Below, one piece after another: positions 13,553 to 34,483 of a DNA stretch of 37,536 bases. The notes beneath the pieces were generated by a model. It did not search any database, was not told where the DNA came from, and saw nothing but the letters and a program-made list of their open reading frames with translations. Numbering within the stretch: the stretch's first letter is position 1; every line of letters begins with the position of its first letter. Position numbers and translations under genes: made by a program. Source of the stretch: Longitalea arenae (GTDB lineage Bacteria > Bacteroidota > Bacteroidia > Chitinophagales > Chitinophagaceae); contig NZ_JAFFJX010000029.1 in assembly GCF_016924755.1 (NCBI RefSeq), forward strand, positions 1-37,536, given 5' to 3'.

Positions 13553-16500
13553 TTATTGTTTTACGAACCTGTATGTACCTAAACTGGTTTTAACGTTATA
13601 GATACCCGCAGGCCAGTTGCCGATATTGATGCGGGTATTGTTGGTGAGCACTACATTGTCTACCAACATGCCTGCGGTATTATACACCTGCGCCTGTCGC
13701 CCGATGAGCGCCGGATCTTTAATTGTAAGGGTGACAAAACTGTTGGCCGGGACTGGCGTAATCTGCAAACCATCTTTGGCCGCAAATTTCAAGAGCGCAG
13801 TTTTGCTGTAGGTAAATTGACCGTCTATGTCAACCATTTTCAGGCGGTAGTAATTGTTGCCCGCAAGCGGGTTTTCATCGGTAAATGAATAAGGGTGTGC
13901 GCCGCTTCCCATGGCCGCCAAAGCGTCAAGTTTGATAAAGCTAACGCCATCGGCACTGCGCTCTATTTGAAACATGGATGTATTTTCTTCATCGGCTGTT
14001 TTCCATTTAAGTACTGCTTTGTTACCCGCTGCCTGGCCGGTAAACTCAAGCAGGGTGAGCGGTAGTGCAGAAAGCACGTTCAGGGTAACGGCATTGCTTA
14101 AGTAGGTTACGGTTCCTGTTACGCCGGCAGGCCAGGTTACCGAAGCAAAACTTCCTGTTACCGTGGCGCCGGTGATGAAGGTAAACGTTTGGCCGGCTGC
14201 CAGGGTAAAGCCATTAATAGTGGAGACGGTGAGCGTACCGCCAACCGTAACGGCTCCACTAACTGCCAGCTGATCGTATTGTGTGCCGGCAGTGGTGCCG
14301 CCGATCTCTGCCTGTAAGACGCCCTGGTTTATTAAATTGCCGGTAACACTGAGTATGCCCAATGAATTGCCCGGCGCAAGTATGCCTGTATTGGTAAAGT
14401 TGGCGTTTACAATGGCGCCTGCGCCTTTAATAGTCCCGTTGTTAATGAGCGTACCGGTTGCACTAAACGTACCGGTTGCACCGATGGTAACAGTACGACC
14501 CGTGGCTATTTCAATAGAGCCGGTGGAGATCGAATTATTAACCGTTAATTCTCTTACCACACCGGTAGCAGGAAATAAAACATTTTTTCCTGCGCCGGGT
14601 ACTGTTCCATTGGCCCAGTTGCCTGCAGTATTCCAGGCAGGGCTTACATTACCGGTCCAGGTATATACGCCTTCATATTCAAGTATTACTGCATTTCCTG
14701 TATAAATTACTTTCCAATACGATGGTAAACCTGTAACTGTAGCAAATGTGCCTGAAACGGCATTGGCGCTGAGGATGGTTACCTGGTCGCCTATTGCGGG
14801 GGTATAGTTCATCGTTACTGCCAGCGTACCGCCCAGCGTTGCTGTACCATTCACCACTAGCTGGTCAAAATCGGTTCCGGCTACGCCCTTACCATTTACG
14901 TCTATTGACAGGGTATTGTTGTTAAAGGTTTCATCGGCATCAAAAGTCATAACGCCAATGGGAGCGCCCGGCGCCAATGTGCCGCCTGCATTTTCATACC
15001 GGGCCGCGGTTATGCTGCCTGCGCCTTTAAGTATCCCACCGGTAATGTTGCTGAAAGTATAGCTGCCAGTACTGATCAACAGGCCCGGAATGGCGGCAGA
15101 CCCGCCAATGGTAATTGTTGCCGCATTGTCGAAGTGGCCTAAATTATAGATCGCCGTAATGGTCACCCGGTTGATCCTGATCAGGCTGCCAGCATTATTG
15201 TAAAAGAGGGAATAATTTTGAAGGCCATACTGCCCTGAAGCAGCACTTGCGCCAATGGTAATGCCACCGGCACTGGTAAACCTGCTTTCATAATCATTGT
15301 ACAACGCAACAGCAGTAGCCCGGTCTATATTGATCTGCCCACCCGTATGGTTAAAGGTTCCTGAATTGTTAATACCATACTGGCCTGCTGCCTCGGTGGC
15401 GCCGATGGTAATGTCGCCGGCATTGTTAAAGGTGTTTCCGGAAGTATTTCGAATTCCCGCTGTTGATACCTGATCAATGATGATATTTCCACCCGAACTG
15501 TTGGTGAAATTCGCGACGCCGTTGTTTAAGCTGGAGTTGATGATGCCATACTGTCCTGAAGCGGCATTTGCGCCAATGATAATACCAGCGGCATTGGTAA
15601 AAGTACTGCCTTGATAATTGTACAACGCCACAGAAGTAGTCCGGTCTATATTGATCTGCCCGCCTGTATTATTGTTAATGACGCCATAGTTTTCAACACC
15701 CCGTGGGCCGGTACCTGCTGTGGCGCCGATAGTAATGGCGCCGGCATTGGTAACAGTTTTGTTGACATTATTAAAAAGTCCTACCATGGTTACCTGGTCA
15801 ATGATGAGCTTACCACCCGTAGTATTGTTGAAAGATGCGTTGTTGTAAATGCCATACTGTCCCGCAACCGCATTAGCCCCGATCGTGATGACGCCGGCAT
15901 TCGTAAAGACGCCAACTGCGTTATTGATGGCAGCTTCGCGGGCAGCGGCCCGGTCGATATTAATTTGAGCGCCTGCATTGTTGTTGAAATTGGCTTCATT
16001 GCGGATCCCGTTCATGGCTAATACCGAAACGTTACCGATGGTAATGATGCCATTGTTTTGTACCGTTCCCTTGTTTATGATGCCCTGTCCCAGATCGCCA
16101 TTAATGGTCAAACTACCAGTGTTGGCGATCGTTAAAGAACCTTCGGGCATAACGGTGACAGACTTTGCCACCCCGGCCGTTGCGCTGATGATTGGGTCAT
16201 TGACCACATCAGGGATGACTGCGTCCAGGGTTGCAGTAGGCACACCTGCCGTCCAGTTGCCAGCGGTATTCCAGTCAGTATTTACCGCGCCGGTCCAGGT
16301 GGTAGGCGGGTTGGAAGTACAAACCAGTACAACCGATTTATCTTCATAGATAATTTGGCAGTTTGTTGGAAGACCGGTTATAGTATTGAATGCGCCCGCA
16401 ATCGAGTTGGCGGTAAGGATAACCACCCGGTCGCCAATGACAGGCGTATAATTTATGGATAAGGCCAGGGTGCCACCAAGTGTTGCTGTGACAATTACTT

Positions 16501-19462
16501 TCACCTGGTCGAAATCGGTTCCGGCTACCCCGGTACCATTCACGTCTATTGACAGGGTGCCGTTACTGAAAGTTTCACGGTAATCAAAAGTCATGATGCC
16601 GATGGAAGCACCTGGCGACAAGGTGCCGCCGGCATTTGCATACCGGTCTGCGGCTATGATACCTGTACCTTTAAATACGCCGCCGGTGTTATTGCTGAAG
16701 GTACCGCCGCCAGTATTGCTCAACAGGATGGGGACGCTTGAAGACGCGCCGATCGTAATGGCGCCTGAATTGTTAAAGAAGTTTCTATTAGCTGTGATAG
16801 CTGTGTTTACCCGGTCAATATTGATCTGCCCACCTGTGTTGCTAAAATCATTATCACTGTAAATACCATAACCGATGGTATTGCCGGCGCTCAACGAACC
16901 CATGGTAATGGCGCCCGCGTTGGTAAAACCAGCGCCATTGTGATAGATACCCGCGCTTGTTACCCGGTCTATCCTGATTTGCCCACCTGTATTGTTGTTG
17001 AAGATTCCGGAGTTTTGGAGTCCATCTGCGCCGGCAGCGGCGTTTGCGCCAATGGTAATTGCTCCAGCATTGGTGAAGGTGTTGGCCATATTGTGGATCG
17101 CAATGGTCGTTACCTGGTCAATATTGATTTGCCCACCCGCATTATTGTTGAAGGTGCTGTAGTTCTTGATGCCGGATACTCCTGAAGCAGCGTTTGCGCC
17201 AATGGTAATATCCCCTGCATTGGAGAAGGTACCGGCGTAATTGTAGATAGCTATAGACGTTACCTGATCGATATTGACTTGCCCCGTGTTGCTGAAAGTG
17301 GCTGTATTGTTGATCCCATACTGTCCCGAAGGCGCATTAACTCCGATGGTGATGGCGCCTGCATTGGTAAAGACGCCACTTACATTACTGAGTGCAGCTT
17401 CGCTGGCAGCGGCGCGGTCAATTTTTATTTGTGCGCCTGCGTTGTTGTTGAAAATGGCCTCATTATATATACCGCTGGCGCCTAATGCCGACATGTTACC
17501 GATGGTAAAGACGCCATTGTTTTGCACCGTTCCCTGATTCACGAGGCCTCGCCCGAAATCGCCCTGGAGGGTCAGGCTGCCTGTAGCGGCGATCGTCAAA
17601 GAACCTCCGGGCTGCACGGTGACAGACTTCGCCCATCCGGCCGTTGCGCTGATGACCGGATCGTTGACCACATCAGGGATGAATGCATCCAGTGCCGCAG
17701 CAGGCACACCTGCCGTCCAGTTGCCGGCAATATTCCAGTTGGTGTTTACTGCGCCGGTCCAGGTAGTTGCGGGGGCAGGTATAGAAGGGGAACCATATGC
17801 CAGTACCACCGTATTATTTTCGTAGAGCACATTCCAGTTGGCCGGAAGCCCGGTTACAACACTGAATGTTCCCGACAGCGATGTGGAACTCAGGATAACC
17901 ACCCGGTCGCCCACGGCTGGCGTATAGTTTATTGACAAAGCCAGGGCGCCGCTAAGGGTGGCCGCGCCATTTACAACTAGCTGATCGAAATCGGTACCGG
18001 CAACCCCCGCGCCATTCACTTCTATGGACAGGGTGCTGTAGCCAAAAGTTTCATCCCCCGTAAAAGTCATAACGCCAATGGATGTACCGGGCGCCAGACT
18101 GCCGCTGTTATTGGCAAACCGGGCCGCATCTATGCTACCGGTACCTTTTAACGTACCACCGGAGCTGTTACTGAAAGTACCGGTTCCGGCACTGGAAAGC
18201 AGCGTTGCCACGCCGGCCACTGCGCCAACGGTAATGGTTCCGGTATTGTTCAACATGTTATTACCGACTGCCAAAGCCGAACTGGCACGATCAATATTGA
18301 TCTGCCCGGTATTGTTAAAATTTCTCTGGCTGAAGATACCTTCGTCGAACGTGTTGCCACCACCCAGCGAACCCACCCTGATGGTGCCTGCATTGGTAAA
18401 GCTAATACCGGTGTTAGCTATGCCTATACCGGATGATTGATAGGGGTGATCGATGGTGATCAGCCCGTCTGCGGTATTGTTGAAGATTGCCTCATTTCTA
18501 AGGCTGATAAGGGCGGTTGGCGCGTTTGCGCCTATAGCAATTGTACCGGCATTGGTAAAAGTGCTGCTGCGATGGTCAAGTGCTATGCCAAAATTTTTAC
18601 GATCGATATTGATTATGCCACCTGTATTATTGTCGAAAGGCCCATAGTTTTCCAGGAATGCACTGAAGCCATATTTCGATCCGATGGTAATGGTGCCCTG
18701 GTTCTGGAAGGTACCCGTGTTCCTGAAACTACTGACAATGCAATTATACGTAATAAATCCACCGGCGTTATTGTTGAAGCTGGCATTGTTATGGAAACCG
18801 CCATTGCTCATTCCTATATCCATACTAATTGAACCTGCGTTGGAGAAGCTGCCGCTATAATTGTAAAGCGCCGTATTTACCTGACCAATGTTGATGTTCG
18901 CACCGGTGAGATTCTCGAAAGCGCCGTCGTTGCGGAGGCCTGTAGTAACGTATCCTGTGGTTGTACCGATATTGATCGTACCTGCATTGGAAAAGGTGCC
19001 GCGAAGATTGTAAAGCCCTGTTCCGCTTACCCGGGCGCCGATAGTGATTATGGCGCCTGAACTATTATTGAAGACACCCTGGTTGCGGATGCCATTTCCG
19101 ACCGTTGCATTACTTAAAAATGTGATGACGCCGTCGTTCTGCACCGTACCCAAATTATCAAAACCCAGCCTGTTAGCGCCTTCATGTATAGTCAGGATAC
19201 CTGATGTGCTGATCGTTAGTAAAGCCCCGGAATCAATCTGTACAGAGTTAACGGCTGCAGTAGCTGAACTGATCACCGGGTCGTTGGTTACATCGGGGAT
19301 GATGACATGGGAGGTTGCATTTGGCACATCTGCCGTCCAGTTATCTGCCCTATTCCAATCCGTGTCGACATTTCCCGTCCAGGTGGTTTGAGCATGCAGG
19401 TTATATGCTGCCACAAAAAATAAAAGAACGAAAGATAATAGTACGCGTTGAGCAAAAGCCAT
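13553..19462 (-). CDS. Giant T9SS-exported repetitive surface protein
   Basis: About 1969 residues. ATG at 19462 is chosen because a signal peptide (MAFAQRVLLSFVLLFFVAAY...HAQ) starts there; the open frame extends 39 codons further without sense. Three long modules follow, each opening with TTWTG-x-V-x-T-x-W-N...NWTA-V and PDV-x-NDP-x-IS. Each continues with some six or seven ~45-residue beta-helix repeats (FTNAGAITIGANAASGQYGI / FNNNAGGQINIDR) and closes with a GT-L-x-PG...DFDQL-x-V...GDRV-x-IL segment. Module starts are near 19395, 17775 and 16310; a shorter fourth module starts near 14670. Then come a fibronectin-like domain (LEFTGQAAGNKAVLKWKTAD...IERSADG) and a type IX secretion sorting domain (PVPANSFVTL...GIYNVKTSLGTYRFVKQ). 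Likely an adhesin or stalk-like surface protein. Confidence 0.92.
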   Translation of the reverse strand: MAFAQRVLLSFVLLFFVAAYNLHAQTTWTGNVDTDWNRADNWTADVPNATSHVIIPDVTNDPVISSATAAVNSVQIDSGALLTISTSGILTIHEGANRLGFDNLGTVQNDGVITFLSNATVGNGIRNQGVFNNSSGAIITIGARVSGTGLYNLRGTFSNAGTINIGTTTGYVTTGLRNDGAFENLTGANINIGQVNTALYNYSGSFSNAGSISMDIGMSNGGFHNNASFNNNAGGFITYNCIVSSFRNTGTFQNQGTITIGSKYGFSAFLENYGPFDNNTGGIINIDRKNFGIALDHRSSTFTNAGTIAIGANAPTALISLRNEAIFNNTADGLITIDHPYQSSGIGIANTGISFTNAGTIRVGSLGGGNTFDEGIFSQRNFNNTGQINIDRASSALAVGNNMLNNTGTITVGAVAGVATLLSSAGTGTFSNSSGGTLKGTGSIDAARFANNSGSLAPGTSIGVMTFTGDETFGYSTLSIEVNGAGVAGTDFDQLVVNGAATLSGALALSINYTPAVGDRVVILSSTSLSGTFSVVTGLPANWNVLYENNTVVLAYGSPSIPAPATTWTGAVNTNWNIAGNWTAGVPAAALDAFIPDVVNDPVISATAGWAKSVTVQPGGSLTIAATGSLTLQGDFGRGLVNQGTVQNNGVFTIGNMSALGASGIYNEAIFNNNAGAQIKIDRAAASEAALSNVSGVFTNAGAITIGVNAPSGQYGINNTATFSNTGQVNIDQVTSIAIYNYAGTFSNAGDITIGANAASGVSGIKNYSTFNNNAGGQINIDQVTTIAIHNMANTFTNAGAITIGANAAAGADGLQNSGIFNNNTGGQIRIDRVTSAGIYHNGAGFTNAGAITMGSLSAGNTIGYGIYSDNDFSNTGGQINIDRVNTAITANRNFFNNSGAITIGASSSVPILLSNTGGGTFSNNTGGVFKGTGIIAADRYANAGGTLSPGASIGIMTFDYRETFSNGTLSIDVNGTGVAGTDFDQVKVIVTATLGGTLALSINYTPVIGDRVVILTANSIAGAFNTITGLPTNCQIIYEDKSVVLVCTSNPPTTWTGAVNTDWNTAGNWTAGVPTATLDAVIPDVVNDPIISATAGVAKSVTVMPEGSLTIANTGSLTINGDLGQGIINKGTVQNNGIITIGNVSVLAMNGIRNEANFNNNAGAQINIDRAAAREAAINNAVGVFTNAGVITIGANAVAGQYGIYNNASFNNTTGGKLIIDQVTMVGLFNNVNKTVTNAGAITIGATAGTGPRGVENYGVINNNTGGQINIDRTTSVALYNYQGSTFTNAAGIIIGANAASGQYGIINSSLNNGVANFTNSSGGNIIIDQVSTAGIRNTSGNTFNNAGDITIGATEAAGQYGINNSGTFNHTGGQINIDRATAVALYNDYESRFTSAGGITIGASAASGQYGLQNYSLFYNNAGSLIRINRVTITAIYNLGHFDNAATITIGGSAAIPGLLISTGSYTFSNITGGILKGAGSITAARYENAGGTLAPGAPIGVMTFDADETFNNNTLSIDVNGKGVAGTDFDQLVVNGTATLGGTLAVTMNYTPAIGDQVTILSANAVSGTFATVTGLPSYWKVIYTGNAVILEYEGVYTWTGNVSPAWNTAGNWANGTVPGAGKNVLFPATGVVRELTVNNSISTGSIEIATGRTVTIGATGTFSATGTLINNGTIKGAGAIVNANFTNTGILAPGNSLGILSVTGNLINQGVLQAEIGGTTAGTQYDQLAVSGAVTVGGTLTVSTINGFTLAAGQTFTFITGATVTGSFASVTWPAGVTGTVTYLSNAVTLNVLSALPLTLLEFTGQAAGNKAVLKWKTADEENTSMFQIERSADGVSFIKLDALAAMGSGAHPYSFTDENPLAGNNYYRLKMVDIDGQFTYSKTALLKFAAKDGLQITPVPANSFVTLTIKDPALIGRQAQVYNTAGMLVDNVVLTNNTRINIGNWPAGIYNVKTSLGTYRFVKQ

Positions 19463-19592
19463 TGGTAGTTTTTTAACAGGTGCTAAACTGTTTCGATAAC
19501 AGAATGCGATGGAAAAATGGGATAAATTACGTTGCGGTGAGATCAATGCCTCGTAGTAAACAAGGGCATGAGGGCACAAGTTAGTTTCCGGA

Positions 19593-26620: not shown

Positions 26621-27290
26621 TCAAGCTTGGTTGTTTACTAATCTTTTTCTTAAAAGCTCAAAACTAGCCCTACCGTACATTTGACGCTTGAATATTTTCA
26701 ACTTTAAAGCCTTCTACCGGGCCATTACTCCATGGTAATTTTACGCCATTTTCGATTGCCTCGAAATCAGAAAGTAATCCTTTTGCAAATCCTCTGATTT
26801 CTTTGACGTTTGATGACATAGCATTTTTGATCCATGCATTTAACATTGAACCGTCTTTTTTCTTGAGCATGCTTTTGAATTGCCGTATGAGTTTTGTAGC
26901 CCTTTTAATTTCTTTACTCTCCGTGCATAGGGTATTAATAAACAATTTCACTTCCTTTGATAAGCGTCCTCTATCAATATAAAAGAGATTGCTGGCTTTA
27001 GGTGGCACCCAGAATATTGTTGCCAACTGATTCGTAGTATTATTTATTTTTCCTTCCCGCAATTTTCTGACATTCTCATAGCACATTGTTGTTGATCCGT
27101 TGTACCCCATTTCTGTAATTTTCTCTAAGACTTCCTTTGTTTCAATCCTTGGATTTTCATCCAGCATTTTACTTACTGCTTCATCACAAAGGTGCATGTT
27201 GGTCGTTCTGGATGACCTCTTGGCGGGCAGAAAGTCAAATGACTTCCACTTTCTGCAATATAGATGAACTTGAAAAATGAAAAAGATAAT
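26621..27290 (-). pseudogene. ISL3-type transposase, C-terminal half, with a frameshift near 26703-26712
   Basis: The minus-strand frame is open from 27290 and starts inside the protein: VHLYCRKWKSFDFLPAKRSS, then ETKEVLEKITEMGYNGSTTM and a core ending LPWSNGPVEGF. WSNGPVEG is the signature around the catalytic Glu of ISL3-like DDE transposases. The frame then goes wrong and stops at 26670. In the next frame the missing end is intact: LKIFKRQMYGRASFELLRKR and LVNNQA, stop at 26621-26623. The N-terminal zinc finger and the first catalytic Asp are absent. The element is therefore both truncated and frameshifted, and inactive. Confidence 0.8.
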
Positions 27291-27325: not shown

Positions 27326-28618
27326 TTATTCATTTTCAATCGGTGGGTCAAACAAATTACCTTGCATGCCTATTTTGGGTATTGCATTATATCTTCCTAT
27401 AAGATAATCCTTTTCAAACGATGCATCATTTCTTACCTCAGGATACTTTGCATGAAGAGACGACATTGAAGAATTCCCTATTTTATCCTTTTCCATAAAA
27501 AGGATTTGATCGCGTCTCAAACCTTTTTTAAGAGGATGTAAATTATGTGCGGTAAATATAATCTGAGCCCCGTTAGGATTGAACTTACTTGAATTATAAA
27601 GTTTGATCACTAAATCAAATAACAATGTATGAAGATGCGCATCTAACTCATCGATAAATAAAATCTTTCTTTTTTTTAACGATTCTAAAATTGGTCCAAT
27701 AATTCCGAAAAATCTTTGCGTACCTAATGATTCATTTTTTAATAAGTCAAAGAATACTCGGTTTGTCACTTTCGAATTTTCATCATACTCATTGTGCAAA
27801 GTCATAACTTTATAATCCATTGAACCCTCCTTAACAACCGACATAACAAAATCATAAAATGAACTTTTCGGTTTTTCGGAGTTAATTAGATGTTCTTCTA
27901 TATTCTCAATTCCTAAATCTGTTTTGCGAAATATCTCATTAATCAAACTACGGTAATCAGAGATAGCCATCAAAGATGCTGTATATTCGATTAAATTTAA
28001 GTGATCATTGTCCTTTGATATCATGAGTTCTGAAAACCATTCGGAAATGGATAAACAAATTGGGCTGTTGAACTGAGCAAGCACTGAAAGGAATAATACA
28101 TTAGGACGTGTAACTTCTGCAAATAATTCAAATTTACCTTTTAAGCCGGCTTTAAATACCTTTTCAAAGGTATAGTCTTGTTTAGCTCTAACAAACAGTT
28201 TTTCTTCCTTTCTTTTATCCGAAAAAAACAACCATTCACTTTCTACATATCTCTGGGTAACCGAAAATCCATACCTATATCGCTTTTCTTCTATATAGAA
28301 AACCACTTCAAATGAGGAAGGCTTATGCTTTGCTACTGATGATAGCAAAAAGGGTTGTACAGGAATTGACTGGTTTGATTGGCTCTCTTTTGACGAATTG
28401 AGTACGAAGAATCTGATAAAATCTATAGCCTTTATCAGATTAGACTTTCCGCTACCATTGCTTCCAAAAATTGCAAGAGACTTTAATAGATTGACTTTGC
28501 TTCCAGGTAAGGGGGAAAATTGACTTTCCTTATATTCTTTTATATTATCTGCAATGAAGTCAATTTTTAAAGGCTCCCGTATTGAAAGATAATTTTCTAC
28601 TGAGATGCTGACCAACAT
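27326..28618 (-). CDS. AAA ATPase of the RloA-like/COG1106 type (ABC-ATPase fold), possible defence protein
   Basis: 430 residues from ATG at 28618, chosen because the family begins with a phrase like LVSISVENYLSIREPLKIDF; the frame extends 18 codons upstream without similarity. Walker A is GSNGSGKSN (52-60). An ABC-type signature-like ESLGTQRFF lies at about 296-304, Walker B KILFIDELDAHLH at 318-330, and a switch His in FTAHNLHPL. This is the split ATPase of AAA_15/AAA_21 type found in RloA, OLD-related and several phage-defence proteins. It has no TOPRIM or nuclease domain of its own, and no RloB-like partner lies beside it: flanks are an ISL3 remnant and a small broken frame. A stand-alone defence role is plausible but not shown. 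Confidence 0.82.
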   Translation of the reverse strand: MLVSISVENYLSIREPLKIDFIADNIKEYKESQFSPLPGSKVNLLKSLAIFGSNGSGKSNLIKAIDFIRFFVLNSSKESQSNQSIPVQPFLLSSVAKHKPSSFEVVFYIEEKRYRYGFSVTQRYVESEWLFFSDKRKEEKLFVRAKQDYTFEKVFKAGLKGKFELFAEVTRPNVLFLSVLAQFNSPICLSISEWFSELMISKDNDHLNLIEYTASLMAISDYRSLINEIFRKTDLGIENIEEHLINSEKPKSSFYDFVMSVVKEGSMDYKVMTLHNEYDENSKVTNRVFFDLLKNESLGTQRFFGIIGPILESLKKRKILFIDELDAHLHTLLFDLVIKLYNSSKFNPNGAQIIFTAHNLHPLKKGLRRDQILFMEKDKIGNSSMSSLHAKYPEVRNDASFEKDYLIGRYNAIPKIGMQGNLFDPPIENE

Positions 28619-28798
28619 ATACCCAAATTCTTTAAAAAGGTTGCAAAGGTAATATTTGTGAAAAGTAAACAAAATAAATTTACCCTCACACCTTGTGGAT
28701 TACTTTTTTGAGCAATTTCTGAGAAAAAAGCTCAGTTTTGCTATGTAATCGCGTAAAGCAATTTGAAATGAAGGATGCCAGCGATGATTGTAAAGAGA

Positions 28799-29358: not shown

Positions 29359-30516
29359 ATGGATAAGATAAAATACTACCCCGTTGGCAACGGGGATATG
29401 TCGTTGATAATATTGCGTGATGGTACCACTATCGCTATTGATTGTAATATACGTCAGACATCAGTGGATAGCACCGACGGCACCTGCTTCGATGTAAAAA
29501 AGGACGTCCTAGCTTCTATCAAAAAGCGTAATGATAATCCTTTTATAGATTCTTTCGTACTTACACATGGCGACCTGGATCATTGTCGAGGCTTTAAGAA
29601 CCACTACTACTGCGGCGATCCTAATGCCTATAGCCAAGAGGACAGGGATAACAAACTAATCCTTATCGATGAATTATGGTTTTCCCCGATGATAGCTGAG
29701 GAACACAGTAATGACGACGAAGATGCGTTCCAGCAGGAGGCAGAGCGTCGGCTGGACCTTCACATCACCGAACACCCCGATAGAAATTTACCTGGCAACA
29801 GGATACGTATCATCGGCTATGACGGCAACAAGGACTACCAGAAGCTGAACTATCTGCGACTTACGCCGGGCAAAGTGGTTAGTACGTTCAACGAAAAAGC
29901 GCAAACTACCTTTTCGCTGTTCATCCATGCCCCTTTCAAAGAAACCCTGGCGTCAGCTGAACCAGGCAAGAACACAAATAGCATCGTCTTCCAGGCAAGA
30001 TTCAAGGAGAAGGCAGATGATGACGACTTTGCGGTACTGGCTATGTTTGGTGGTGACGCAGACTATATCGCCTGGGAGATCATTGTTACCAAAACTATTG
30101 AATCTGGTAAAGCAGAGTCTGAAAAAGCACTGGATTGGGATATTTTCCTGGCTCCCCACCATTGCTCCTGGACCTTTTTCAATGAACATAATGAAAAAGA
30201 GGAAGCGAAGGAAAGCTCCCTTGAGGTACTTCGTTACCGCAGGAGCGGTGGTCTGATCATCTCTTCTAGCAAAAAAATTGAGGACGATGACGATAACCCA
30301 CCCTGTTACCTAGCGAAAACAGAATATTTGAAAGTGCTGAACAAGTCGTCAGAATTTATCAATACGGCCGAACATAAATCAGAGGAGTATCAGGAACCTA
30401 TTGAATTTACCATCTCCGCCAACGGTCCCGTGCAACCAGTCAAGTCCGATGTATCTGCTGCCCGCGGATCGGCGGGAGGTTCTGGCGCTGCAGCTATTAC
30501 TATATACCAAGGCTAG
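29359..30516 (+). CDS. ComEC/Rec2-type MBL-fold protein, first gene of a ubiquitin-like conjugation operon
   Basis: A 385-residue MBL-fold protein. FVLTHGDLDHCRGF carries the HxDxDH metal motif (His70, Asp72, Asp74, His75), the ComEC/Rec2 variant in which Asp replaces the second His. MFGGDADYIAWE (Asp233) and LAPHHCSW (His267/268) are the later ligands. TTIAIDCN is the first strand turn. The C-terminus is unusual: after the catalytic fold comes a flexible tail, ARGSAGGSGAAAITIYQG, ending in glycine. The stop is 11 bases before the E2-E1-JAB start. It may be a nuclease or phosphodiesterase, or the protein that is conjugated; both are inferences. MBL genes have been noted beside some bacterial E1/E2/JAB genes. 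Confidence 0.87.
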   Translation: MDKIKYYPVGNGDMSLIILRDGTTIAIDCNIRQTSVDSTDGTCFDVKKDVLASIKKRNDNPFIDSFVLTHGDLDHCRGFKNHYYCGDPNAYSQEDRDNKLILIDELWFSPMIAEEHSNDDEDAFQQEAERRLDLHITEHPDRNLPGNRIRIIGYDGNKDYQKLNYLRLTPGKVVSTFNEKAQTTFSLFIHAPFKETLASAEPGKNTNSIVFQARFKEKADDDDFAVLAMFGGDADYIAWEIIVTKTIESGKAESEKALDWDIFLAPHHCSWTFFNEHNEKEEAKESSLEVLRYRRSGGLIISSSKKIEDDDDNPPCYLAKTEYLKVLNKSSEFINTAEHKSEEYQEPIEFTISANGPVQPVKSDVSAARGSAGGSGAAAITIYQG

Positions 30517-30527
30517 AAAATCTGATA

Positions 30528-32774
30528 ATGTTATACAGCGCAGATTACCAGCCCTTTCGGGGGGTGTTACCAGATAGTGTAAAAGAGTGCATTGCTGAAA
30601 TAATTCAATATTTTGGCAATGCCTCCTTGCCGGTGCTTCGGCTTGACGAAGACCATATTGTTGTTCCTGTAAGTTTCCATGTGCCGCTGCCTACGCGTGG
30701 AGCGCTTGGAGGCATTGATATCCGGGAAATAGAGCCGATGTTGATCAAGATTTCGCTGTCTGAATACCCGCATAAAATGCCGATGCTGCTGAGTGACAGG
30801 AAAAACTTTCCTCACGCACAGTTACCGCATCTTTATGTGAAACGTGTGAACCAACCTGCATCGTTGTGTCTGGTAAGGAACAGTCCTAATGAGTGGTTTG
30901 CCAACAAAAGAATGTCTGATCTGCTGTCAGTGGGATTGGAATGGCTACAGAAAGCAGGCATGGGAAAGTTGGCTGACGACAATAATGAGTTTGATCCCAC
31001 AAGGTTGGAAAACTTCTATGGGACACATGTGTATAAATACAACACTTTGCATGAAACAGTGAAAGATAAGGTTCCTTTCATCAAGGGTTTACCCGCCAGC
31101 GTCCTGATGGGATGGCTTGATGAAAACGATGAGTTCGACTCCGGATATTACAGTGCTGGTCCCATTCCTTATGTTTCGCTGCCAGATACTCGTGATGCGC
31201 TTCGAAGTGTAACTGAAAAAATGAAGACGCATAAGCGGAAGTTCATGTTTTCGTTGGTTGTATGGCGGGATGACGGCCAGGCAGAAGAGAGCTATAGCAC
31301 CAGCTTGCCTGAAAACTTCGCCGCGCTGAAGCTTTATTTCACTGGCAGAGGAATTGATATCATAGCCATCCTCAATGCATACATGAAGCTAGATCTCCAA
31401 TTCCTCAACGGAATATTGATCACCTTCGCTAATAGGAGACCAAAAAAAATGGTGGGTTATGACGGTCCTTATGAGTTTACCAGCTTTATCGTCAATGCTG
31501 GAAATTTTGCCACCGGCAAGTGCCTAGACGACGCACAAGTCTGGACCCTTCAACATATAGAACCCTTCACAAAAGAACTTGGGGCAAGGCTTTCCGGGGA
31601 AAACAGAGAAGAGAAAACACTATATATAGGTGGAGGTTCCTTAGGCAGTAAAATGATCATGCATGAGGCTAGGAGTGGCAACACCGATATTAAAATAATT
31701 GACCATGACAAGTTACTTCAACACAACCTTGCCCGGCATACATTATCCAGAGAGCATGTAGGGAGAAATAAAGCGAAAGCAATCGTAACGGAATTAGAAT
31801 CGCTTTATGTATTGCAGGATACCGCTTTTAAAGCACATGCCAGCCGCATTGACCAGTCTTTTGATAAGGTTGAACCAGGTTATTCCCGAATAGTAGATAC
31901 CTCTGCCAGTCTGAGTGCCCTTAATTTTTTGACTACGGCCACTCTGCCGCCTTCTGTAATACTATCGAAATGTGAAATTGCCGATGATGGACGCCTCGGA
32001 TTTCTTTATACCGAAGGAAATAACAGAAACCCTAGAATAGATGATCTGGTATCCCTCACTTTCTTCCGCTCGCTTACTAATCCGCACCTGGCTGGTTGGC
32101 GTGAGCGAGATATGCATCGCGTCCTCACCACGCTCGATGTGGGTCTCGGATGCAGTTCCACAACGACAGTGATGCCTGATGATACCATCTCTCTGCATGC
32201 CAGCGCCTTTTCTAGGGTGTTGTACAAAAATACCGGCAACGCTGTAAGCAAAGGCGAGGGCCTGCTATACATGAATATTTGTGAAGAGGAAGACCTCCTC
32301 TCACTTTCGAGCAAAACGGAGCTGGTAAAACCGTTCAATGTACTAATGTGCGCGGCAGGTAGCGGCTGGTCTGTCAGGATAATGGCAGGTATACAGCAAC
32401 AGTTATGGGATTTGTGCAGACAAAAGGCGCCGACAGAGACTGGCGGTGTATTAATTGGCTTAGCCAACTATAAGACCAAGACGATTCATGTCTTCGATAT
32501 CATCGTAGAACCCCAGGGCAGTAAGGGTAGTTGTACAGGATTTGAAAGAGGCACAAAAGGACTACCGGAGGCGGTTGATCAAATCAAGGAGCGGTCGGGC
32601 AATACCATAGGCTATATAGGTGAATGGCACTCGCATCCTATGGACCTGGAAAAGCTCAGCGCGCAGGATATTGCCACGATTGAAGAGTTAAAGAAGATCA
32701 ATAGGAAAATCCCAATTCCTACTTGTGCCTTCGTAGTTACCAATACAAAATTATTGGCTTTTGTTTTTGAATAA
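30528..32774 (+). CDS. E2-E1-JAB triple fusion (ubiquitin-like conjugation and deconjugation enzyme)
   Basis: 748 residues. Residues 20-145: a prokaryotic E2-like fold (LIKISLSEYPHKMPMLL, then HLYVKRVNQPASLCLVRNSP with candidate catalytic Cys114, then WFANKRMSDLLSVGLEWL). Residues 160-340: a linker domain with no clear identity. Residues 360-600: a ThiF/E1 adenylation domain with nucleotide loop YIGGGSLGSKM (Gly368-Gly370, Gly373), Asp392 in IIDHDKLLQHN, Asn400 and Arg403 in HNLARH, Lys415/417, and candidate catalytic Cys542 in VGLGCSSTTT. Residues 625-748: a JAB/JAMM isopeptidase with Glu638 (TETGGVLIG), His701, His703 and Asp714 (EWHSHP-x9-D), all present. In type II CBASS, Cap2 is an E2-E1 fusion and Cap3 a separate JAB; here all three are in one chain. 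Patatin follows after 23 bases. Confidence 0.9.
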   Translation: MLYSADYQPFRGVLPDSVKECIAEIIQYFGNASLPVLRLDEDHIVVPVSFHVPLPTRGALGGIDIREIEPMLIKISLSEYPHKMPMLLSDRKNFPHAQLPHLYVKRVNQPASLCLVRNSPNEWFANKRMSDLLSVGLEWLQKAGMGKLADDNNEFDPTRLENFYGTHVYKYNTLHETVKDKVPFIKGLPASVLMGWLDENDEFDSGYYSAGPIPYVSLPDTRDALRSVTEKMKTHKRKFMFSLVVWRDDGQAEESYSTSLPENFAALKLYFTGRGIDIIAILNAYMKLDLQFLNGILITFANRRPKKMVGYDGPYEFTSFIVNAGNFATGKCLDDAQVWTLQHIEPFTKELGARLSGENREEKTLYIGGGSLGSKMIMHEARSGNTDIKIIDHDKLLQHNLARHTLSREHVGRNKAKAIVTELESLYVLQDTAFKAHASRIDQSFDKVEPGYSRIVDTSASLSALNFLTTATLPPSVILSKCEIADDGRLGFLYTEGNNRNPRIDDLVSLTFFRSLTNPHLAGWRERDMHRVLTTLDVGLGCSSTTTVMPDDTISLHASAFSRVLYKNTGNAVSKGEGLLYMNICEEEDLLSLSSKTELVKPFNVLMCAAGSGWSVRIMAGIQQQLWDLCRQKAPTETGGVLIGLANYKTKTIHVFDIIVEPQGSKGSCTGFERGTKGLPEAVDQIKERSGNTIGYIGEWHSHPMDLEKLSAQDIATIEELKKINRKIPIPTCAFVVTNTKLLAFVFE

Positions 32775-32797
32775 CTACTTTAAATTGATATAAACGT

Positions 32798-34483
32798 ATG
32801 GATGAGCAACCATCCCTTCCACCGGAAGATCTAACGATTGCGATCGCGTTTTCGGGTGGCGGTTACCGCGCAGCTGCATTTAACCTAGGAGTGATCAGTT
32901 ACTTGAGAGAGGTAACGCTTGATACCGGCAGCCTGCTGGATAAAGTATGTGCCCTTTCCACCGTAAGCGGTGGCACTATCACCGGGACCCGTTATGCCCT
33001 TGGTGTTCAACGCGGGGAGTCCTTCCGGGATATCTATCATGCGTTGTATGAATTTTTGACCAAGAAAGACCTTGTGAACCTGACACTGGACAAGTTGCTT
33101 AAAGCCAATCATTGGAGCCCTGAGCGTGTTCAGTCGCTGATCAGTGCGATAGCAGACGTATATGATGAGCAATTGTTTAACGGTGCGTTGTTTGGTGAGT
33201 TGATGACAGAGAGACCAGAAACACACCTGAGGCATATGTCTTTTAATGCAACAGAGTTCGCCAGCGCTTTACAGTTCCGGTTTCAGTGGTCAGAAAGGAT
33301 CTTTCAGCTCAAAAAGAATTTGCCTGACCGCGGGCTGATAGGTAATAGAAACATCCGCATTCCGCATGAAGTGGCGCGCCATATTCGGCTAGCAGACATC
33401 TTAGCTGCCTCCAGCTGTTTCCCAGGTGCTTTTGAGCCGATCAACTTCCCAACAGATTTTGTATTGAGTGCAGTTCCTGCCGTCACCTCTTTTAAAACAG
33501 CGCCAAATTTCCCAGTAGGACTGATGGACGGGGGGATTGTTGATAACCAAGGCCTTGAACCATTATTGCTGGCCAATGACAGAATGATGTTACATCGTAA
33601 AAACGTAACAGATAAACAAGATCAACAGACCTGCATCGACCTGATCATCGCTTCCGATGTGGCCAGTCCCTATATGGAGCAATTCAAAGCCAGTATCCAG
33701 CACAAGCAGAACTGGTGGCGCGGTTTGACGCCAAAACAAATTCTGGTCGCTGATGGGGCATTGTTATTAACATCGTTCGTTCTGCTCGGTTATTTTCTTT
33801 ACCTCGATCAGATCTGGCTGGCCGTTCTGTTCGCAACTTTATCAACATTCTTTCTGATAATTCTATTTGTAGGAAAATTTTTGAAAGGTCAGCCGAAAAA
33901 ACTAGGCGTGCCCGCTCATTTTCTATCTCCCTTGGGTAAGCTACTGCGGTTAAATCTGCGTGTCTATGAAAACATGCTGTCCAATCGCAAAGATTCCGTG
34001 ATGAAAATGATGAACGAAGTATTTCTCAAACGGATAAGGCAATTGGTTTATAACAATGTTTATCATAAATCGGAGTGGAAAAACAGGCGTATCATGAATG
34101 CAGTCTATGAGCTTCGGCCGGGTGAAGAGAAGAGGCAGGAGAAGTTACAAAAAGGTGAATTACCTACCTATCTCGACCCCTCCGCAGCCATTCAGGAGGT
34201 GGCCCAGCAGGCAGCGAGTATGGATACGACTTTATGGCTCAGCCCAAAAGATGTTGAAAGCAAAATGCTGGACGCCGTTATTGCTTGTGGTCAGTTTACC
34301 ATTTGCTGGAACCTGCTGGAATATATTGAGAAGGTAAAAAAAGATCCCTCCAACACAGGTGCAACCCATCAAAAACTTCTCAGCCTAGAAAATCAGCTAA
34401 AGCTTCACTGGGAGCAGTTACAGATAAACCCTTATTGGCTATTCGAACAATACCACTCACCGGTAAATATCGATGCAGGATAA
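32798..34483 (+). CDS. Patatin-like phospholipase with two transmembrane helices, likely effector
   Basis: 561 residues. The oxyanion loop is AFSGGGYRAAAFNLG (17-31). The nucleophile elbow is STVSGGTITG (54-63) with Ser57, nearer the cPLA2 VSGG form than the plain GxSxG. The catalytic Asp244 is in LMDGGIVDNQG, so the dyad is intact. After the catalytic part come two hydrophobic helices (about 318-336 and 339-361), separated by a short charged turn, then a soluble helical C-terminal domain ending VNIDAG with a C-terminal glycine. Patatin-like lipases are common membrane-damaging effectors in bacterial defence (for example CapV in CBASS), although those lack this membrane anchor as far as I know. 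Last gene of the operon, 23 bases after the conjugation enzyme gene. Confidence 0.9.
   Translation: MDEQPSLPPEDLTIAIAFSGGGYRAAAFNLGVISYLREVTLDTGSLLDKVCALSTVSGGTITGTRYALGVQRGESFRDIYHALYEFLTKKDLVNLTLDKLLKANHWSPERVQSLISAIADVYDEQLFNGALFGELMTERPETHLRHMSFNATEFASALQFRFQWSERIFQLKKNLPDRGLIGNRNIRIPHEVARHIRLADILAASSCFPGAFEPINFPTDFVLSAVPAVTSFKTAPNFPVGLMDGGIVDNQGLEPLLLANDRMMLHRKNVTDKQDQQTCIDLIIASDVASPYMEQFKASIQHKQNWWRGLTPKQILVADGALLLTSFVLLGYFLYLDQIWLAVLFATLSTFFLIILFVGKFLKGQPKKLGVPAHFLSPLGKLLRLNLRVYENMLSNRKDSVMKMMNEVFLKRIRQLVYNNVYHKSEWKNRRIMNAVYELRPGEEKRQEKLQKGELPTYLDPSAAIQEVAQQAASMDTTLWLSPKDVESKMLDAVIACGQFTICWNLLEYIEKVKKDPSNTGATHQKLLSLENQLKLHWEQLQINPYWLFEQYHSPVNIDAG

Follow-up and report, generated by a model that had tools for sequence, protein, structure and literature searches.

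A 6A-MBL operon of Longitalea arenae with a predicted patatin effector and a metallo-beta-lactamase-fold protein as candidate conjugated modifier

The stretch of DNA analysed here, referred to as the window, comprises 37,536 nucleotides of Longitalea arenae (contig NZ_JAFFJX010000029.1; contig C20 of an assembly of 7.28 Mb and 40 contigs). It contains an operon of three plus-strand open reading frames (ORFs) encoding a metallo-beta-lactamase (MBL)-fold protein, a triple fusion of E2, E1 and JAB domains, and a patatin-like phospholipase. The first two genes are the core of the known 6A-MBL system, whose anti-phage role is taken from the names of the NCBIfam models. With moderate confidence, we propose that a patatin fills the effector slot of this operon, that the MBL protein would be conjugated through its C-terminal glycine, Gly385, and that either the conjugation or the activity of the MBL protein would unleash a killing patatin. 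From sequence and by analogy, the operon is best read as a CBASS-like conjugation pathway (CBASS, cyclic-oligonucleotide-based anti-phage signalling system) that lacks a CD-NTase and has a patatin as its putative effector.

The first two genes form a 6A-MBL core

In NCBIfam (release 20), the "anti-phage 6A-MBL system" is represented by two equivalog models, and both core genes exceeded the respective cut-offs. The MBL protein matched NF058524 (6A-MBL MBL-fold) with 388.2 bits (cut-off 220) and the fusion matched NF058523 with 564.9 bits (cut-off 320). The excerpted text of Iyer 2006 (PMC1779556) describes operon type 6a as usually consisting of two genes only, one for a triple E2-E1-JAB protein and one for a specialised metallo-beta-lactamase. 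Since both genes exceed the curated cut-offs and the pair is listed there as type 6a, the core belongs to a named system. An initial annotation of the window had proposed a candidate new defence system, a claim that is not supported, as two of the three genes belong to the named one. Its account of three tightly spaced genes is borne out by the ORF coordinates (Table 1), and its intact catalytic motifs are confirmed in all three genes by residues that are invariant among the aligned relatives. The window thus has the 6A-MBL arrangement of an MBL-fold gene and an adjacent fusion gene, 11 bases apart, and differs from the usual two-gene type by the added patatin gene, which begins after a further gap of 23 bases.

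Table 1. Features of the operon, with positions in the window
Feature	Position	Strand	Supporting features
6A-MBL MBL-fold protein, 385 aa	29359..30516	+	ComEC-type metallo-beta-lactamase fold; HGDLDH 70-75, GGD 231-233, HHCS 267-270; NF058524
C-terminal tail of MBL protein, residues about 356-385, ends Gly385; proposed E1 substrate	30424..30516	+	Low pLDDT; invariant G385
E2-E1-JAB triple fusion (Cap2-like plus Cap3-like), 748 aa	30528..32774	+	E2 Cys114, E1 GGGSLGS 368-374 and Cys542, JAMM E637/H701/H703/D714; NF058523, Pfam
Patatin-like phospholipase, membrane hairpin after catalytic domain, 561 aa; proposed membrane effector	32798..34483	+	Ser57/Asp244; PF01734

Pfam recognised the Prok-E2_A, ThiF and Prok-JAB domains in the fusion. 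Across 23 fusion sequences, the window's included, C114, G368, G370, G373, C542, E637, H701, H703, S711 and D714 are invariant; this alignment places the JAMM glutamate at position 637 and not at 638, where it had been put initially. The fusion was modelled with a predicted local distance difference test score (pLDDT) of 83 and a predicted template modelling score of 0.68. Foldseek returned the Cap2-CdnD02 complex 7to3 as the top PDB match (E 2.9e-24, template modelling (TM) score 0.38 by query), and the matches also included other Cap2 entries solved with the CdnD02 C-terminus, Cap3 (9ild, E 2.5e-8) and BubCD. Cap2 was also the best PDB match by sequence profile. The score against the CBASS Cap3 model, 38.6 bits, was far below its cut-off of 200. 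PADLOC assigned no system name: its generic E1-E2 and JAB models matched the fusion, the MBL protein was weakly LmuA-like (32.6 bits) and the patatin had no match. The copy in Niabella defluvii (L063) seems to be decaying, as both its MBL gene and its fusion gene are broken up into several frames.

The MBL protein had no Pfam match. Its metal site (H70, D72, D74, H75, D233, H267 and H268) is invariant in an alignment of 26 sequences that includes the window's. The model of the protein (pLDDT 85) most closely matched the beta-lactamase-like domain of ComEC in the PDB (9ic4, E 5.7e-12, TM score 0.72 by target, root-mean-square deviation 6.1), and a sequence-profile search of the PDB gave only two matches, both ComEC proteins. 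Compared with the ComEC nuclease domain, the window protein is free-standing, has no membrane channel and carries a long tail that ends in glycine. Because its fold is closest to the ComEC domain and its metal ligands are invariant, the MBL protein probably has enzymatic activity in addition to its predicted role as the conjugated partner.

The MBL protein ends in a conserved glycine

Gly385, the last residue of the window MBL protein, is the only fully invariant column beyond residue 356 among the 26 aligned proteins. It comes after a segment (residues 363-382) with pLDDT under 50 that is predicted to be disordered, and NF058524 does not reach it, as the model stops at residue 356 of the window protein. 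We compared 46 MBL tails, which represent all loci with an MBL end except L063 (in pieces). Glycine is the final residue in 19 of them and is followed by one to five residues in the other 27. Immediately before it stands Tyr, His, Gln, Phe or Ala, five residues that were grouped together once the tails had been viewed. The background comparison used an earlier set of 45 MBL proteins (with L061, without L044). A terminal glycine was found in 19/45 of these, compared with 22/407 other ORFs (at least 200 aa) of the same loci, and a glycine within the last six residues in 45/45, compared with 107/407. The corresponding figures for the last six residues were 7/43 for third genes and 5/45 for fusions.

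A similar pattern has been published for CD-NTases. The excerpted text of Jenson 2023 (PMC10097602) reports that their C-terminal residue is kept as Gly or Ala in CBASS operons with full Cap2 and Cap3 but not in others, while the penultimate residue varies. Cap2 forms a thioester with the C-terminal glycine of the CD-NTase, this glycine is needed for conjugation, and Cap3 cleaves there (PMC10097602). Because the C-terminal glycine pattern of the MBL proteins resembles that of CD-NTases conjugated by Cap2, the MBL protein is, by analogy, probably the conjugated modifier. This comparison favours the earlier suggestion that the MBL protein may be the modified partner; the sensor role suggested alongside is hypothetical.

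The conserved glycine could also be a by-product of the next gene, whose start codon may overlap the MBL end (T-ATG-G reads Tyr-Gly). The overlap is real in 23 of the 46 loci, and an MBL relative outside the 6A set, described below, ends in Tyr-Gly-Arg under the ATG of a gene that is not fusion-like. The other 23 loci, however, keep the glycine with no overlap, and the window is among them, with a Gln-Gly end and an 11-base gap. Moreover, Val, Ala, Asp or Glu would be possible at the overlapped codon, yet all 23 overlapping loci have Gly. The 46 proteins form 15 clusters at 60% identity, 10 of which have a non-overlapping member. We therefore regard this explanation as highly improbable.

A second alternative is that the MBL protein is a nuclease effector or a target, with a housekeeping protein of the beta-grasp type (ThiS or MoaD) serving the fusion as modifier. 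Iyer 2006 (PMC1779556) suggests, in the excerpted text, a housekeeping beta-grasp partner as one possibility for such operons. The retention of the whole metal site and of the ComEC-like fold would fit this alternative, and sulphur-carrier chemistry is likely present in this genome, where a MoeB-rhodanese-like gene (named by eye) lies beside a JAB gene. It leaves the conserved C-terminal glycine on a disordered tail unexplained, and we consider it distinctly unlikely compared with conjugation of the MBL protein itself.

The third gene occupies an exchangeable slot

To describe what follows the fusion, we tabulated 49 loci: the window, L033, L038-L069 and L078-L092, where L061 (= L034) is Chitinophaga tropicalis. 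The third gene was taken as the protein encoded within about 1.1 kb after the fusion. An MBL gene is present in 47 of the loci, and a contig end truncates the other two (L060 and L068). A patatin occupies the slot at 10 loci, a 4TM-A protein at 16, a 4TM-B protein at 14 and a 192-aa two-helix protein at three, together 43 of the 49. The profiles of these families were built from the same genes, so that members match by construction, and the helices were taken from a simple hydropathy scan. Small membrane proteins of three families thus fill the slot at 33 of the 49 loci; of those tested (L033, L038, L043, L046 and L058), 0/2 had a Pfam family and 0/5 an NCBIfam family, and no NCBIfam cut-off was exceeded by the third genes of eight relatives tested. 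The expectation from the initial annotation that the MBL and patatin genes would both accompany the fusion therefore stood for the MBL gene, which is present at all 47 uncut loci, but not for the patatin, found at only 10 of 49, though 33 others hold small membrane proteins.

The distribution of slot contents was examined on a tree of 39 fusions (without L042, L060, L061 and L063; long-branch warning for L091, L064 and L065). The four slot labels need 10 changes on this tree, compared with a mean of 19.9 for shuffled labels and a minimum of three. At the level of sequence comparison, this suggests that the content of the third-gene slot is exchangeable. Because 33 of the loci without a patatin hold small membrane proteins in the same position, the pattern points to effector swapping rather than to chance neighbours. 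Relatives of the 4TM-A protein were absent from 247 genomes of the class, a result uninformative on their context; one 4TM-B relative was found in these genomes, beside an already tabulated 6A operon.

The window patatin scored 52.6 bits against PF01734 (Patatin; cut-off 27.7); it exceeded the cut-off of no NCBIfam model, and neither PADLOC nor PHROGs gave a family for it at the limits applied. The GGGxR oxyanion motif, S57 and D244 are invariant in eight sequences, those of the window and seven relatives. A simple hydropathy scan placed hydrophobic helices at about residues 315-333 and 341-359, in agreement with the two membrane helices noted initially, and membrane helices are predicted in seven of the 10 slot patatins. 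By its fusion, the window clusters in the tree with L041, L078, L086 and L087, all of them patatin loci (support 97/88). The window patatin itself shares 21-27% identity with seven other slot patatins and 40% with a free-standing patatin. The free-standing family has two hydrophobic helices after the catalytic domain, like the window protein, whereas the L041 type has helices at about residues 86-138. As the two types differ in identity and in helix position, the slot appears to have received membrane patatins of two kinds. The window patatin looks like a replacement and belongs to the free-standing membrane-patatin family, unlike the patatins of the nearest relatives.

Free-standing patatins of the window type occur in nine other genomes of 395 (L104-L112), and the 11-12 kb around each of them matched none of the profiles for the MBL protein, the fusion or the small membrane proteins. 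Two of these hairpin patatins (L111 and L112) lie beside genes that, by eye, resemble type I restriction-modification genes.

That the nearest relatives of the patatin stand alone, and that type 6a usually has two genes (Iyer 2006, PMC1779556, excerpted text), would be expected if the patatin were an unrelated gene that happens to follow the 6A-MBL operon here. Against this stand the 23-base same-strand spacing and the slot patatins at nine other loci, eight of them on the strand of the fusion and one, that of L091, on the opposite strand. A chance neighbour is, in our view, extremely improbable.

The third gene could instead be a membrane target or anchor of conjugation that tethers the MBL nuclease, in which case the MBL protein would be the effector and the third gene would not kill. 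The small membrane proteins, with the two tested lacking a Pfam family and the five tested lacking an NCBIfam family, would fit such a role, and the nuclease-type site of the MBL protein is intact. This does not readily account for the 10 slots with a patatin, whose dyad is invariant in the eight aligned sequences, nor for the operon of L087 (G375:C1), in which the fusion is followed by a patatin as well as a 4TM-B protein. We consider this alternative unlikely, and the comparison of slots favours the patatin as a putative membrane effector, as the initial annotation had it.

Comparison with CBASS and other conjugation operons

The window operon resembles type II CBASS in its E1-E2 fusion and JAB peptidase, in a candidate partner with a conserved C-terminal glycine and in its exchangeable putative effectors, and Cap2 is the closest solved structure. 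CapV of CBASS is likewise a patatin. The window differs from type II CBASS in having an MBL protein in place of the CD-NTase, in the fusion of JAB to the E2-E1 chain and in the residues that follow the glycine in more than half of the tails. Pfam SMODS (PF18144), the CD-NTase model that was run, had no match in the whole genome nor among the 17 window ORFs scanned, in line with the initial description of an operon without a CD-NTase. As no SMODS-type CD-NTase was found in the genome, a cyclic-nucleotide route is unlikely.

The Bil and Bub operons, which have a role in defence and are related to types 6d and 6e of Iyer 2006, share E1 and JAB domains with the window operon. Types 6d and 6e carry a gene for a beta-grasp ubiquitin-like protein (Iyer 2006, PMC1779556, excerpted text). 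No such Pfam family was found in the ORFs scanned near the window operon, a scan in which small beta-grasp genes can be missed.

A proposed mechanism and points that weigh against it

We propose that, on infection, the E1 domain would adenylate Gly385 of the MBL protein, which would then pass via Cys542 and Cys114 and be joined to its targets, either proteins or lipids. Removal of the attached MBL protein would fall to the JAB domain, which in relatives with one to five extra residues would first trim the C-terminus to glycine. The MBL protein would in this way play the part of the CD-NTase of type II CBASS. Conjugation, or catalysis by the ComEC-like MBL protein, may then unleash the membrane patatin, which would degrade phospholipids and kill the infected cell.

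More tentatively, the 6A-MBL system as a whole could plausibly be a CBASS-like pathway that has no cyclic-nucleotide synthase. Its ubiquitin-like modifier would be a ComEC-type nuclease of 43 kDa, which JAB would mature to one C-terminal glycine, which E1 and E2 would conjugate to targets and which would be coupled to a slot of swappable membrane-attacking effectors; in the window, a free-standing membrane patatin would have replaced the patatin of the relatives. The C-terminal glycine and the exchangeable slot go beyond the known 6A-MBL core. If the proposal is correct, both an effector and a substrate that is open to testing, Gly385 of the MBL protein, can be assigned to the system. A large enzyme would then stand in for ubiquitin for a second time, the CD-NTase of type II CBASS being the first, and it would seem that a C-terminal tail lets Cap2-like enzymes accept different partners. 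Effector slots with patatins or small membrane proteins would then be common to otherwise different conjugation-based defences.

Several observations weigh against the proposed mechanism. At six of the 49 loci, the slot contains no member of the third-gene families: L058 has another small membrane protein directly after the fusion, L067 has one before the MBL gene, L083 and L068 have a 4TM-B gene that is divergent or lies about 4.3 kb further along, and no match was obtained for L079 and L092. Three of the 10 slot patatins (L065, L088 and L090) have no predicted membrane helices. The tails that extend past the glycine are unlike the terminal Gly or Ala reported for CD-NTases, and their trimming by JAB is an assumption. 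Many of the loci are closely related, as is evident from the 15 clusters among the 46 MBL proteins.

Further points come from other MBL genes. Some 6A-MBL loci have a second, different MBL-like gene (L041, 12564-13448; L044, 3004-4026; also L045, L054, L055, L060, L083 and L089), those beyond L041 and L044 having been chosen by eye from ORF listings. These second genes score 432 bits (L041) and 103 bits (L044) against the PADLOC candidate PDC-M48B. Three of the eight have a glycine within the last six residues and none ends in glycine.

A wider search with the MBL alignment (E 1e-4) matched 19 of 296 genomes. Seven matches are 6A loci already in the set; the remaining 12 are weak (E 1.3e-8 or worse) and nine of them lie in frames of at least 800 aa. 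Four of the 12 were examined as a control for MBL relatives outside 6A operons, and this control is small and in part unfavourable. L137 (seen first as L120; genome G279, 259-2032) is the MBL relative with the Tyr-Gly-Arg end. The ATG of the next gene overlaps the MBL end, and the readable start of that gene looks membrane-protein-like, not fusion-like. The contig ends about 260 bases on, and no fusion gene lies in those bases. A Tyr-Gly end with overlap can therefore perhaps occur without a conjugation enzyme. L136 (seen first as L121) ends in Tyr-Gly-Glu and is not an MBL relative by profile. In L127, the glycine is five from the end and is preceded by Leu, and in L122 the motif script found nothing. 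A membrane-protein gene also precedes the MBL relative of L137, which is perhaps a relative of the PDC-M48 candidate.

Distribution and genomic surroundings

The cut-off of NF058524 was exceeded in eight of 395 genomes of the phylum and that of NF058523 in three of 198 genomes of the order, the genome of the window included in both counts. A peptide-pattern scan of a genome collection gave 32 loci (L038-L069), and tblastn of plasmids gave 290 records, 22 of which cover at least 80% of the query; eight regions were fetched. By record titles, relatives occur in Bacteroidota, Pseudomonadota and Candidatus Cloacimonadota. At five distant loci, the MBL protein was over its cut-off in five of five and the fusion in four of five, the fusion of L091 reaching 318.3 bits against the cut-off of 320. 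Two scans of viral contigs with the fusion found no relative and a phage collection gave no match to the MBL protein, so that a phage or counter-defence origin of the operon is without support. A candidate second conjugation operon in the genome was also set aside: the other JAB gene adjoins the MoeB-with-rhodanese-like gene, that is, a sulphur-transfer context.

The surroundings of the operon are of mobile or defence type. An AAA_21 ATPase gene resembling AbiLi (27326-28672, minus strand; PADLOC 281 bits) adjoins a piece of an ISL3 transposase (26670-27197, minus strand). Three plasmids (L078, L081 and L082) carry, immediately upstream of the 6A operon, an annotated WYL-domain gene in divergent orientation, which is a possible regulator. 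The window also encodes a repeat-rich protein of 2008 aa (13553-19579, minus strand) that, by eye, is a secreted surface protein.

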